Source: Acidobacteriota bacterium
GTDB lineage: Bacteria > Acidobacteriota > Thermoanaerobaculia > Gp7-AA8
DNA: 64,000 nt
NCBI GenBank assembly: GCA_003223645.1
Contig: QHVT01000005.1
Coordinates: forward strand, 248,001-312,000
Direction: 5' to 3'
This document shows, piece by piece, positions 45,365 to 54,441 of the stretch (the first letter of the stretch is position 1; each line of letters starts with the position of its first letter). A program made the translations under genes and the position numbers. The notes below the pieces were generated by a model. That model saw only the letters and a program-made list of their open reading frames with translations. It searched no databases and was not told where the DNA came from.

Positions 45365-46735
45365 TCATACCGATGCGATCACTTTCAGCTCGACCGAGAT
45401 CGGCGTCGGTAACGAGTCCACGCCGACGGTGGTGCGCGTCGGCTGGATTTTGCCGAAGTATTCGGCGTAGACCTTGTTGAAGCGGTCGAAGTCGCGTTTC
45501 ATGTCGGTGAGGTAGACGGTGACGTCGAGGACTTTTTCCAGCGAGCTGCCGGCGTCTTCGAGAACCGCGCGGATGTTCTCGATGCACGCGCGGGTCTGCA
45601 CTTCGATGTCGTTCGGTCCGGGAATCTCGCCGGTGACGGGCTTGCGCGGGCCGATGCCGGAGAGGAAGAGGAAGTTGCCGACGCGGCGCGCGTGCGGATA
45701 GGGGCCGACCGGCTTCGGCGCGCGCTCGGTGCGGATGACGTCGGACTGCGAGGACATTTCGCTCTCGCGATGCACGTCCGGTGACTCGGCGAGGACATTG
45801 TGCGTTTCGAGTCCCGTGCCGCTCGTTGCAGCGAACGTCGGCACCGGGCCTTCGTCGAATTCTTTTTCCCAGTCGATCTGCTTCCGCTCGTTCGGCGTCA
45901 GTTCGACGATTCCGCAGCCCGTTCCCCACACCGGCTGGTACTCCCAGACTTTTCCGTCGTATTTGTTGTGCTCCCCCATCACGGCGCCGAGCCACCAGAT
46001 GGCCTTGAAGCCCATGTCGGCATTCGCCTCGCGGCCGAAATCGCGCGCGACCTGCGCAACGTCTTCCAGTCGTCCCTCGCCGAGCATCTCCAGGATCTTG
46101 CGATTCCACTCGTCGTCTTTCTGCGAAGAAATTCGATCGTGGGCAGGGTCAATGTCCGCCACTTCGTAGCGATTGGAGAGATTCGTCACCAGAACGACGA
46201 CCGTCTTTTTTCCATACGCCTCGATCGCAGCGCGCGCCGCAAACCCCAATGCGCGCGTCTCCTCGCGCTCCGCGTAGATGTTGCAGGAGACGATCGACGC
46301 GGGAATCGCATTGTCGGGATTGAGCAGCTTCAATGCGACCACTGTTCCGGTATCGATCGGAAAGCCGTGATACGCGACCGTGGCCGCCTGCATTCCGTGC
46401 TCTTTACAGAGGCCGGCGTAGAGTTTCCCGAATTCAGGATCGACGCGAAATTCGTAGGGGATCTCGCCGAGCTCGTACCAGTTCTGATCGACGAGCGTCC
46501 ATTTCGGCTTGGGATCGACCTGGAACAAGTGGCCGATGACGCTGAACCACTGCGTGGAATAGACGAGCATTAGCTCTGCGCCGCTCTGGGCGATCTCACG
46601 GCCGATTGCTTCGTAGGCGTATTTGAGTTTCGCCCATCCTTCGTTCTGGTCCGGCGCCAGGAGAATATGGGGCTGCCCTGGCACCAAGTACGCTTTGATT
46701 AATTGTGAATTGTGAATTGTGGATTGTGGATTCAC
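45365..46735 (-). CDS. 2-aminophenol 1,6-dioxygenase alpha-type subunit fused to RidA/2-aminomuconate deaminase
   Basis: A 456-residue fusion. Residues about 12-290 are a LigB-superfamily domain close to the alpha subunit of 2-aminophenol 1,6-dioxygenase (IKAYLVPGQPHILLAP, VAYHGFPIDTGTVVALKLLNP, KDDEWNRKILEMLGEGRLEDV); like that subunit it lacks a full metal triad. Residues 333-456 are a RidA domain (GPYPHARRVGNFLFLSGIGP, VQTRACIENIRAVLEDAG, Arg in QPTRTTVGV, Glu in ISVELKV) like 2-aminomuconate deaminase. Met327 may be a relic start of the latter. The GTG start and first 11 codons lie in an AATTGTG repeat, and it overlaps the four-helix gene stop. Confidence 0.85.
   Translation of the reverse strand: MNPQSTIHNSQLIKAYLVPGQPHILLAPDQNEGWAKLKYAYEAIGREIAQSGAELMLVYSTQWFSVIGHLFQVDPKPKWTLVDQNWYELGEIPYEFRVDPEFGKLYAGLCKEHGMQAATVAYHGFPIDTGTVVALKLLNPDNAIPASIVSCNIYAEREETRALGFAARAAIEAYGKKTVVVLVTNLSNRYEVADIDPAHDRISSQKDDEWNRKILEMLGEGRLEDVAQVARDFGREANADMGFKAIWWLGAVMGEHNKYDGKVWEYQPVWGTGCGIVELTPNERKQIDWEKEFDEGPVPTFAATSGTGLETHNVLAESPDVHRESEMSSQSDVIRTERAPKPVGPYPHARRVGNFLFLSGIGPRKPVTGEIPGPNDIEVQTRACIENIRAVLEDAGSSLEKVLDVTVYLTDMKRDFDRFNKVYAEYFGKIQPTRTTVGVDSLPTPISVELKVIASV
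46697..46733. repeat. AATTGTG repeat, left arm of the four-helix cassette
   Basis: TTAATTGTGAATTGTGAATTGTGGATTGTGGATT: four to five units of 7-8 bp. It is the inverse of 47088-47126 on the other side of the four-helix-bundle gene, and it encodes the N-terminus (NPQSTIHNSQL) of the dioxygenase alpha fusion. Confidence 0.9.
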
Positions 46736-47082
46736 TGCGTTTGGGCCTTTCGGATGATCGTTGTGAGGATAGCGACGATTTGATTGCAGTCGCTGACGAG
46801 GTCACCAGCGTCTGTGAGTTTCTTGGTCGCGTGAAGGAGTCTGAGCCAGTAGTGCGATTCTCGCGCTTCTTTCAGCGCGATCGAACACTTATGAATGAAA
46901 TCGGGCCTGCTTTGTGCGGCATCCGCTTCTTCGAGGTTCGCACCGATCGACGAACCCGACCGCAGCAGCTGTGCGCTCATCACGCGTCCGCTCCCGCCCC
47001 GCGGCCACAACGTGTCGTGCAGTTCTACTACGGCGCACGCAAACCGAAATGACCGATCCCGAATATCGTCGCCCTTAGCCAT
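46732..47082 (-). CDS. Four-helix bundle protein (S23/IVS-encoded type)
   Basis: A 116-residue helical protein of the family first seen in 23S rRNA intervening sequences and related to the Avd protein of diversity-generating retroelements. The pattern RSFRFACAVVELHDTLW, LLRSGSSIGANLEEADAAQSRPDFIHKCSIALKEARESHYWLRLL is diagnostic. It interrupts a metabolic operon and is bounded by inverted AATTGTG repeats, so it looks like an inserted cassette. Its stop overlaps the GTG of the following gene. The molecular function is not known. Confidence 0.93.
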   Translation of the reverse strand: MAKGDDIRDRSFRFACAVVELHDTLWPRGGSGRVMSAQLLRSGSSIGANLEEADAAQSRPDFIHKCSIALKEARESHYWLRLLHATKKLTDAGDLVSDCNQIVAILTTIIRKAQTQ

Positions 47083-47087
47083 CGCGA

Positions 47088-47126
47088 TCTCTCAATCCAC
47101 AATTCCCAATTCACAATTCTCAATTC
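47088..47126. repeat. AATTGTG repeat, right arm of the four-helix cassette
   Basis: CTCAATCCACAATTCCCAATTCACAATTCTCAATTCG-type units, inverse of 46697-46733. The stop codon of the dioxygenase beta subunit gene (47120-47122) is formed inside it, so insertion of the cassette reshaped the 3' end of that gene. Confidence 0.9.
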
Positions 47127-53249: not shown

Positions 53250-53259
53250 AGCAGGCAAG

Positions 53260-53333
53260 GGCGCATAGGCTCAAAGGCGCATAGGCTCATAGAGATTTCT
53301 GTGAGCCTGTGAGCCCTTGAGCCTGTGAGCCTA
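53260..53333. repeat. Head-to-head tandem GGCTCATAGG repeat
   Basis: GCGCATAGGCTCAAAGGCGC-type units (53260-53292) and inverted TGTGAGCCTGTGAGCCC-type units (53299-53333). The right arm is translated as the last residues (VGSQAQGLTGSQKSL) of the luciferase-like monooxygenase, whose stop codon lies in the left arm. Confidence 0.9.
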
Positions 53334-54441
53334 CAAATTCCGGCGCAACTTTCTCCATAAAGTCCGTCATGTTCTTCATCACGCGCTTCGAGTCGTGATT
53401 GTTGAAGTCGAACCAAAGCATCAACCGGTCGTCGGAGTGAAACCGTTCGCGCATCTGCGCGACGATTGCGTTCGCGTCTCCGACGAGCGCGTTGTTCGTG
53501 GCGCGGCGCACCTTTTCTTCGTCGAGCGTTCCTTCGAGCGCGCGCCAGTAGTTGGACAGCGCATTGCGCGCTTCTTCCGCGGCTTTTGCCGCGTCGTCGT
53601 TGATGAAGACGAGCACCGTGCGCGGCATCAGCCGGCGTTCCCACTGGCCCTGATAGTGCTCGCGCATCCGCTCGTTCGTTTTCTCGATCTCGTCGCCGGG
53701 CGTGATCGAGAGGTTGAACACGCCGACGGGGAGGATCGTATTGGCGAAGATCTGCGTCGCGGGATCGTGCGAGCCGATCGAGAGGCGCAGCAGGTCCATG
53801 CGCGATTCCTGCGGGATGATTTTCAAGTTCGGAAATCGCCAGCGCGGCTCGAGCTGTGTCCCCTCGATGAAGCGCGGCGCGATCATGTCGGAGTTGAGCA
53901 CCTCGCCCTTCAACAGCCGGAGAAAGATCTCCGTCGCCTCTTCGAAGATTTTGTTCTTCACTGCCGGCCAGTTCGCACGCTCGAAATCGTCGCGTGGCAC
54001 GATTCCGTACGGGATGTTGATGAACGGAAAGCGTCCCGACGCGAAGCCGACGGTGATGGTGCGCGTCTCGTTCGGATCGAGACCGTGCAGCGCGAGGAAA
54101 GTCTTGATGCGCTCGGCCGCGGCGATCGGTCCGCCGTTGCAGAGGATGTTCATGATCGCGGAGCCGATGCCGATGCGCTTCGTGCGCGCGAACACGCGAT
54201 GGCCGAGCTGAAGGATGTCCGTGTTCAATCCGATCTCGCCGGCAAAGTGCGGGATGACGGCGCCGGGATTCGTCTTCTGGACTTCCGTCGAGAGATGGCT
54301 CTCCGCGACCCACGCCGTGCCGAAGCCGAGGCGGTCGGCGAGCTCGATCTGCTCGAAGAAATTCTCGAACATCACGCGCTCGGACGGCATGTAGCCGTCG
54401 ACGACGGTCTGGCAGATCGAGAAGAAGATGTCGAGCTCCAT
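53287..54441 (-). CDS. Luciferase-like (LLM) flavin monooxygenase
   Basis: A 384-residue TIM-barrel flavoprotein: FEQIELADRLGFGTAWVAESHLS, IGLNTDILQLGHRVFARTKRIGIGSAIMN, GRFPFINIPYGIVPRDDFER, and HDPATQIFANTILPVGV followed by MREHYQGQWERRLMPRTVLVFINDD are typical of bacterial LLM class oxidoreductases needing reduced FMN or F420. It opens the aminophenol-type part of the operon, 16 nt after the HEAT gene. It may hydroxylate the ring or a side chain before cleavage. The last 15 residues come from a tandem repeat. Confidence 0.88.
   Translation of the reverse strand: MELDIFFSICQTVVDGYMPSERVMFENFFEQIELADRLGFGTAWVAESHLSTEVQKTNPGAVIPHFAGEIGLNTDILQLGHRVFARTKRIGIGSAIMNILCNGGPIAAAERIKTFLALHGLDPNETRTITVGFASGRFPFINIPYGIVPRDDFERANWPAVKNKIFEEATEIFLRLLKGEVLNSDMIAPRFIEGTQLEPRWRFPNLKIIPQESRMDLLRLSIGSHDPATQIFANTILPVGVFNLSITPGDEIEKTNERMREHYQGQWERRLMPRTVLVFINDDAAKAAEEARNALSNYWRALEGTLDEEKVRRATNNALVGDANAIVAQMRERFHSDDRLMLWFDFNNHDSKRVMKNMTDFMEKVAPEFVGSQAQGLTGSQKSL

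Follow-up and report, generated by a model that had tools for sequence, protein, structure and literature searches.

The question raised by this locus is why genes for the cleavage of 2-aminophenol should stand beside a luciferase-like flavin monooxygenase (LLM) and an asparaginase-II-like hydrolase (AsnII), and where the 2-aminophenol would come from; 2-aminophenol dioxygenases are known mainly from the degradation of pollutants. The cluster occupies positions 45365-54441 of the window—the whole stretch of 64,000 nucleotides analysed, from an Acidobacteriota genome designated here G000—and all of its named genes were found at the coordinates given below, on the minus strand, with the families of most of them confirmed by profile and PDB matches, so that the cluster noticed in the preliminary description is real. 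We consider it likely, with a probability of roughly 0.6, that the cluster represents the middle and lower part of tryptophan/kynurenine catabolism operating without kynurenine 3-monooxygenase (KMO) or kynureninase, the steps of LLM and AsnII being predicted ones.

The amnBACD-like part of the cluster is clear. The catalytic (LigB) beta subunit (47120..48040, PF02900) matches the beta subunit of 2-aminophenol 1,6-dioxygenase in the PDB (3vsg_B, E 1e-130) and is 61% identical to CnbCb of Comamonas; its residues His14, His63 and Glu252, which we take to be the metal ligands, are kept in 16/16 sequences. The paired alpha subunit (45365..46735; match to 7txy_A, E 1e-55) is a protein of 456 residues, with PF02900 at residues 15-272 (about 46702-45899) and PF01042 at 337-455, the latter belonging to a RidA-type 2-aminomuconate deaminase domain (residues ~332-456, about 45742-45368; TIGR00004 over cut-off). 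The same fusion is seen in 17 of the 19 alpha proteins, and the Arg and Glu of RidA are kept in all 17 fusions; the deaminase had thus been rightly noticed, although it is a C-terminal domain of alpha and not a gene of its own. Concerning the semialdehyde dehydrogenase (ALDH, AmnC-like; 50615..52042, PF00171, 588.9 bits), its nearest relatives are 2-aminomuconate 6-semialdehyde dehydrogenases, the best PDB match being 4u3w (E 4e-142). By homology, alpha/beta is a 2-aminophenol 1,6-dioxygenase, predicted from its sequence to turn over 2-aminophenol, and the AmnA, B, C and D set of steps was correctly recognized from the outset.

It had also been pointed out that the usual later steps are absent. 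In the cluster of the window, none of the amnFEHG lower-pathway genes—hydratase and decarboxylase included—was found, and HOA aldolase exceeded the TIGR03217 cut-off in 0/20 genomes, G000 among them. The latter would suit a cluster that acted on another aminophenol or made a picolinate-like compound, as first suggested; picolinate can form from 2-aminomuconate semialdehyde, probably non-enzymatically, according to PMC3790839. ALDH and RidA, which carry the semialdehyde beyond picolinate, nevertheless recur with alpha/beta, and the extra genes are explained by their linkage with TDO and KynB described below. A different substrate, or the production of a picolinate or an oxalocrotonate derivative, is therefore very improbable.

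The remaining genes fall into accessory and conserved ones. Two tandem DoxX-like membrane proteins, 60% identical to each other (copy 1, 49348..50637; copy 2, 48045..49343), are present as described, the DoxX label itself finding no Pfam match at E 0.001. Between beta and alpha lies a four-helix-bundle (23S_rRNA_IVP) gene (46732..47082; PF05635, TIGR02436 over cut-off) that had previously been missed; a 32-nt inverted repeat borders it on both sides (46701-46732/47094-47125, 91%), and it is probably an inserted cassette outside the pathway. In G205, a four-helix gene sits between SDR and LLM. Homologues of DoxX stand beside cluster genes only in G000, G001 and G005, and both the DoxX and the four-helix genes were rejected as pathway members, since most of the stretches compared lack them. 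The eight genes supposed to be conserved as a set thus reduce to a recurring core of LLM, AsnII, ALDH, beta, alpha and RidA, which mostly co-occurs, though sometimes spread over two or three places; the dispersal without co-occurrence that would have spoken against the original observation was therefore not seen.

The two unusual members of this core, a luciferase-like monooxygenase and an asparaginase-II-like amidase as originally named, are LLM (53287..54441, 384 aa), over the cut-off of PF00296 with 46.5 bits, and AsnII (52167..53258), a class 3 (ReAV-type) hydrolase matching PF06089 with 167.9 bits. Their partners in other genomes point to their role. In G476 a single run on one strand reads TDO-SDR-LLM-AsnII-ALDH-beta-alpha::RidA-KynB, and the trio TDO-SDR-LLM stands together, in this order, in 8/8 LLM-bearing genomes of the class of G476 (93 genomes searched). 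G429 exhibits TDO-SDR-LLM-ALDH-RidA-KynB with a separate beta-alpha-AsnII operon, while KynB—by family a kynurenine formamidase (TIGR03035)—adjoins alpha::RidA, or is one ORF away from it, in nine genomes of the order of the window. An AsnII orthologue was present in 9/9 genomes in which a search of the phylum (396 genomes) found LLM. Since the orthologues of LLM and AsnII lie with TDO and KynB elsewhere, the two enzymes are best read as upstream suppliers of 2-aminophenol. A pyrimidine role resembling rut, conceivable for a monooxygenase with an amidase and RidA, was abandoned in view of the actual partners, TDO and KynB.

Across 19 genomes, TDO and AsnII are mostly kept or lost together (13/1/1/4, p 0.006, kinship uncorrected), the association of TDO with beta being weaker (p 0.038). 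It should be noted that presence was coded by hand for these tests, G007, which is split over two contigs, counting as present, and the AsnII fragments of G008 and G014 as well as the beta remnant of G014 as absent; the ortholog set omits sequences with less than 80% query cover or below an identity floor of 40% for LLM and alpha, 45% for KynB and 50% for the others. The core is incomplete in some genomes: G004 has LLM-AsnII-ALDH and no alpha/beta, G009 has no beta and an LLM remnant, G008 has alpha and KynB with no beta and only a fragment of AsnII, and G014 retains the cluster genes as fragments. In G005, G017, G013, G018, G065, G278 and G429 the genes are spread over two or three places. 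Such scattering, along with the clear amnBACD-like part, would suit an ordinary amn-type cluster with unrelated neighbours; the finding of LLM and AsnII in the same company across two classes and several families, with AsnII forming a distinct clade and LLM being highly conserved, speaks against it, and we regard this explanation as scarcely probable.

The TDO and KynB proteins themselves are divergent to various degrees. Among 30 genomes, none has a TDO over the NCBIfam cut-off of 390.7 bits; that of G476 scores 212.5 bits and matches a TDO in the PDB (2nw7, E 4e-44), and that of G205 exceeds the Pfam cut-off. In the lineage of the window, the TDO gene lies by ribAB, outside the cluster, and encodes a divergent and short protein (233 aa) that is missing some 30 residues as well as the GTG motif at the C-terminus; both His residues that we take to be those of the haem region are retained. 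G013 has the cluster genes and no TDO match. KynB of G476 falls just below its cut-off (201.6 of 223), matches in G004, G012 and G013 are weak, and in G000, G001 and G003 there is no match at all. The divergent TDO and the missing KynB of G000 count against the pathway. Judged from sequence comparison, the link of the cluster to tryptophan and kynurenine is nevertheless strong.

To our knowledge, textbook tryptophan catabolism cleaves kynurenine by kynureninase. No kynureninase over the cut-off (246.4 bits) was found in any of the 18 tested genomes with an AsnII orthologue, 14 of them having nothing above 21 bits (G000, 20.9 bits) and four—G005, G007, G009 and G017—having weaker relatives of 113-128 bits, whereas the control G029 reached 455 bits. 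A divergent kynureninase-like protein occurs in eight genomes, four with the pathway and four others (G005, G006, G007, G009, G014-G017), its gene adjoining a relative of 2OG-Fe oxygenases in G005, G014 and G017 (family scan on the G014 copy). It was rejected as the missing step, scoring under the cut-off and occurring in G006, G015 and G016, which have no AsnII orthologue, and in G014, which has only a fragment. The basis of the pathway is thus comparative, consisting of the gene families, their conservation, the linkage with TDO and KynB and the lack of a kynureninase over cut-off.

As for HAAO, only G029 among 30 genomes has it over the cut-off; this genome does not belong to those with the pathway and carries HAAO, along with a PF04909 amidohydrolase (presumably of the ACMSD superfamily), beside its kynureninase. 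HAAO being below cut-off in G000-G018, LLM and AsnII might instead perform the chemistry of KMO and kynureninase, i.e. C3 hydroxylation and C-C hydrolysis, to give 3-hydroxyanthranilate, a carboxylated 2-aminophenol that alpha/beta would cleave in place of HAAO. The genomic context is equally compatible with this possibility; it would, however, require a carboxymuconate semialdehyde decarboxylase, none being present in the G476 run, in contrast to the HAAO and PF04909 pair of G029, and beta shares 58-65% identity with enzymes of plasmid-borne amn/cnb clusters. We also know of no PF06089 enzyme that hydrolyses C-C bonds, and on the whole consider this alternative unlikely. A KMO-like gene observed in G001, behind NRPS genes, counts against a route lacking KMO.

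In the preferred route through 2-aminophenol, TDO, and KynB where present, would yield N-formylkynurenine and kynurenine. LLM would then, in a Baeyer-Villiger reaction, place a single oxygen atom between the ketone carbon of kynurenine (or N-formylkynurenine) and its 2-aminophenyl ring, the predicted product being aspartate esterified at its 4-position with a 2-aminophenyl group, a compound that may rearrange to the anilide N4-(2-hydroxyphenyl)asparagine. Hydrolysis of the beta-aspartyl bond by AsnII would release L-aspartate together with 2-aminophenol, whose ring alpha/beta would open to give 2-aminomuconate semialdehyde. ALDH would oxidise this semialdehyde, and the fused RidA domain of the alpha protein would deaminate the ALDH product to 4-oxalocrotonate. 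The order could also differ, with LLM acting on N-formylkynurenine, AsnII releasing aspartate and 2-formamidophenol, and KynB deformylating last, as might be read from its position as the last gene, directly after alpha::RidA; the membership of KynB in the kynurenine formamidase family, and the deformylation still required in genomes without KynB, make this sequence of events quite unlikely.

LLM is proposed, on chemical grounds, to be an FMN-type kynurenine Baeyer-Villiger monooxygenase. The protein passes none of the cut-offs set for the NCBIfam LLM models, and its one match among PDB sequences, to an alkanal monooxygenase, is weak. Its predicted structure (mean pLDDT 63.7) ranks FMN luciferases first as fold matches, F420 enzymes being likewise among the matches of this model of middling confidence, with 4uwm, a type II Baeyer-Villiger monooxygenase, at rank 48. 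Type II Baeyer-Villiger monooxygenases of the luciferase family do exist, as stated in PMC4631483. Across 21 Acidobacteriota orthologues, 114 positions are invariant; in one loop, the LLM of the window falls 22 columns short of five orthologues aligned with it. No flavin reductase partner for LLM was identified. A distant relative (44%) occurs in Streptomyces clavuligerus in a different gene context.

AsnII, in turn, is proposed to be a repurposed hydrolase of the class 3 asparaginase family that would cleave a beta-aspartyl bond; an enzyme of this family fits a beta-aspartyl product, which was counted in favour of the LLM/AsnII chemistry. The residues of its Ser-Lys tandems (S71, K74, S100 and K262), whose roles in class 3 L-asparaginase are treated in PMC8602277, are invariant in 33/33 sequences. 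Of the zinc site Cys135/Lys138/Cys189, the importance of which is described in PMC11024299, Lys138 is replaced in 18/18 pathway proteins (Glu in 16, His in two), both Cys ligands being changed in two of the 18; this altered site counts against the proposed route. The AsnII of G013 was re-extracted by hand for this comparison. In the evolutionary tree, prepared without the fragments from G007, G008 and G014, the pathway proteins form their own clade (support 100/100), apart from other AsnII proteins. Among the plasmid matches listed (15 of 80 records, at 25-32%), none had at least 60% identity to AsnII. The structure model of AsnII (pLDDT 34.6) was left out of the reading.

Overall, the initial interpretation is partly supported, its enzyme set standing and its destination changing. 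We favour the view that the Acidobacteriota possess an undescribed tryptophan pathway, in which kynurenine would be oxidised by a new Baeyer-Villiger monooxygenase of the luciferase family, and aspartate and 2-aminophenol would then be released by a repurposed class 3 asparaginase; no account of a route from kynurenine to 2-aminophenol was found among open-licence PMC papers, although one may be published elsewhere. If true, this would add a family to the known monooxygenases and a function to those of the asparaginase family, account for soil bacteria that have TDO and KynB yet no kynureninase, and provide 2-aminophenol dioxygenases with a natural, non-pollutant source of substrate.

Compared with known systems, the cluster shares with the amn/cnb pathway of Burkholderia xenovorans LB400 and Comamonas CNB-1 the beta and alpha subunits, the 2-aminomuconate semialdehyde dehydrogenase and the RidA-type deaminase, but here alpha and RidA are fused, amnFEHG are not in the cluster, and LLM and AsnII are linked, as are TDO and KynB in other genomes. 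With the bacterial kynurenine pathway (TDO, KynB, KMO, kynureninase, HAAO, ACMSD and AMSDH) it has in common divergent homologues of TDO, KynB in related genomes, and the semialdehyde dehydrogenase and deaminase steps; in place of kynureninase and HAAO, neither of which is found over cut-off, the middle is occupied by LLM, AsnII and the 2-aminophenol dioxygenase, and the predicted products are aspartate and 2-aminophenol rather than alanine and (3-hydroxy)anthranilate. The diketocamphane monooxygenases, type II Baeyer-Villiger enzymes, share with LLM the bacterial luciferase fold and the proposed FMN-dependent oxidation of a ketone; LLM is, however, not their close kin in sequence, and it is proposed to act on an amino acid that is an aryl ketone. 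ReAV, the class 3 L-asparaginase of Rhizobium etli, belongs to the same sequence family as AsnII and has both Ser-Lys tandems, whereas AsnII stands in a separate clade with the zinc ligand Lys138 exchanged for Glu or His.

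The cluster comprises eight genes on the minus strand of the window (45365-54441), encoding a luciferase-like monooxygenase (LLM), an asparaginase-II-like protein (AsnII, PF06089), a 2-aminomuconate 6-semialdehyde dehydrogenase (ALDH), two DoxX-like proteins, the β subunit of a 2-aminophenol 1,6-dioxygenase, a four-helix protein, and the α subunit of the same enzyme fused to a RidA-type deaminase domain (α::RidA). The ALDH gene overlaps the first DoxX gene and the four-helix gene overlaps that of α, the remaining gaps being 4, 4, 28, 37 and, in one case, 124 bases, a spacing that suggests a single operon. 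The LLM, AsnII, ALDH, both LigB subunits, the RidA domain and the four-helix protein exceeded their Pfam cut-offs; the DoxX-like proteins had no match in the Pfam search. The AmnA/B/C/D-type enzyme set proposed in the preliminary description is borne out by the matches of β (E 1e-130) and α (E 1e-55) to the corresponding chains of 2-aminophenol 1,6-dioxygenase, of ALDH to 2-aminomuconate semialdehyde dehydrogenases (E 4e-142), and of the RidA domain in Pfam. The deaminase-type domain, however, is not encoded by a gene of its own but joined to α, as in 17 of the 19 α subunits collected, only those of genomes G278 and G429 being unfused.

With a threshold of E ≤ 0.001, a β query matched 17 of 100 relatives, 13 of these genomes having a true β by identity, whole or split across contigs; the others are a 59-residue remnant (G014), a related α only (G008 and G009) and a weak match (G076). 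In 20 stretches from 15 relatives, the recurring gene order is LLM-AsnII-ALDH-β-α::RidA, found in full on a single contig in the window, G012, G003, G011 and G001; in G010, G002 and G007, contig ends interrupt it. Within the eight-gene set, these five genes are the recurring core, and the DoxX and four-helix genes are variable. The cluster genes are spread over two or three sites in G005, G017, G013, G018 and G065; G009 has lost β and most of the LLM, and G004 keeps LLM-AsnII-ALDH, searches there for α and β having found neither. The DoxX-like tandem of the window (48045-50637) encodes membrane proteins 60% identical to each other, with one homologue each beside cluster genes in G001 and G005. 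In the window, 32-nt inverted repeats of 91% identity (46701-47125) enclose the four-helix gene (23S_rRNA_IVP, PF05635), and one of the two arms is coding sequence for the first residues of α::RidA. PF05635 genes also adjoin α in G009, G010 and G011 and the LLM in G004 and G205, in the last between SDR and LLM, as if the gene were a mobile cassette.

Concerning the genomic company of the cluster, nine genomes from the taxonomic order of the window encode a kynurenine formamidase (KynB, TIGR03035) next to α::RidA or one ORF away, seven of these proteins scoring above the cut-off of 223 bits and those of G009 (217 bits) and G018 (200 bits) below it. Among 396 genomes of the phylum, the LLM was found in nine, all of which have an AsnII orthologue with at least 63% identity. 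Among 93 genomes of a second class, the LLM was found in eight, in all of them together with tryptophan 2,3-dioxygenase (TDO) and an SDR in the order TDO, SDR, LLM; the AsnII, α and β searches in this class covered genomes other than G449, G450, G452 and G453. In G476, TDO, SDR, LLM, AsnII, ALDH, β, α::RidA and KynB lie on one strand within 9 kb, the same eight genes being split in G205 into two runs about 10 kb apart. A separate second operon, β-α-AsnII, is present in G429 and G278. In G065, from the window's class, one contig carries both TDO-SDR and LLM-AsnII-ALDH, and another β with α::RidA. Across the 19 genomes of the window's group (G000-G018), of which 14 have a TDO match, 13 have both TDO and AsnII, four (G006, G014, G015 and G016) lack both or have them broken, and two (G008 and G013) are discordant, giving a Fisher p of 0.006, and 0.038 for TDO with β, both uncorrected for kinship. 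G014, G015 and G016 each have a relative from the same genus with both genes; the completeness of G015 and G016 is below 90%.

As for the classical kynurenine pathway, the control genome G029 encodes within 9 kb kynurenine 3-monooxygenase (KMO), kynureninase (455 bits), a PF04909 amidohydrolase that we take to be ACMSD, HAAO, TDO and ALDH. It was the only one of 30 genomes searched, all outside the second class, with HAAO above the cut-off. Kynureninase gave no match over 21 bits in 14 of 18 tested genomes with an AsnII orthologue, the other four (G005, G007, G009 and G017) having a relative that scores 113-128 bits, the cut-off being 246, and no HOA aldolase passed the cut-off in 20 genomes. 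A sub-cut-off kynureninase-like PLP protein beside a 2-oxoglutarate/Fe(II) oxygenase relative was seen in G005, G014 and G017 (L084:9102-11542, also loci L081 and L083). When the G029 KMO was compared with 30 of the FAD_binding_3 loci of ten genomes, among these only G001 gave a strong match (44%), G026 and G011 gave weak ones (25-27%), and the three loci compared from the window genome gave none. The KMO-like gene of G001 (locus L221, contig C15) stands behind NRPS genes with condensation, AMP-binding and carrier domains, and possibly makes a hydroxykynurenine-type building block.

No KynB was found in the window genome, and its TDO-like protein is short and divergent: some 30 residues are missing, as is the C-terminal GTG motif, though both haem-region histidines are retained; none of the TDOs of these genomes reaches the NCBIfam cut-off. 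The short gene (L068:9141-9842, contig C44) adjoins ribAB, and in relatives it lies upstream of TPR, TonB, ExbB and ExbD genes. The window lineage might take up kynurenine or use another formamidase.

In Baeyer-Villiger chemistry, the electron-rich aryl group of an aryl ketone should migrate. Kynurenine being such a ketone, its electron-rich 2-aminophenyl group would migrate, and the resulting aspartate 2-aminophenyl ester, with its amino group in the ortho position, would readily rearrange to the anilide N4-(2-hydroxyphenyl)asparagine. A hydrolase of the asparaginase family, such as AsnII, would be the natural choice to cut this product into aspartate and 2-aminophenol, the latter being the exact substrate of the adjoining dioxygenase. 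We infer that kynurenine may be cleaved by Baeyer-Villiger oxidation by the LLM and hydrolysis by AsnII, a single scheme that would cover the LLM, AsnII, α/β, ALDH, RidA, TDO, KynB and the missing kynureninase; the SDR is unaccounted for. Searches of a literature lying mostly outside subscription journals (PMC10384668 and PMC10470539 included) brought up no paper describing a route from kynurenine or tryptophan to 2-aminophenol with a luciferase-like monooxygenase or an asparaginase.

With regard to the LLM, it passed no NCBIfam cut-off, and 114 positions are invariant across 21 orthologues. Its structure model is of middling confidence (pLDDT 63.7) and has FMN luciferases as nearest folds, the type II Baeyer-Villiger enzyme 4uwm ranking 48th and F420 enzymes also being among the matches. 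One loop of the window protein (53287-54441) is 22 alignment columns shorter than in five aligned orthologues. A relative with 44% identity is encoded on the Streptomyces clavuligerus megaplasmid pCLA1 (L150:14001-15245), the other query genes being absent within the 29 kb seen.

The pathway AsnII proteins form a single clade (support 100/100), separate from the other AsnII, most of which come from the same genomes; long branches meet at that split. Compared with ReAV, the class 3 L-asparaginase from Rhizobium etli, both Ser-Lys pairs are retained in all 33 AsnII sequences. The position of the zinc ligand Lys138 is occupied in the pathway proteins by Glu (16 of 18) or His (2 of 18), and in the non-pathway ones by Lys (14 of 15); two pathway proteins have both Cys zinc ligands altered as well. 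In ReAV itself, the K138A replacement is reported to leave a kcat of 4.8 per second on asparagine, down from 416 (PMC11024299).
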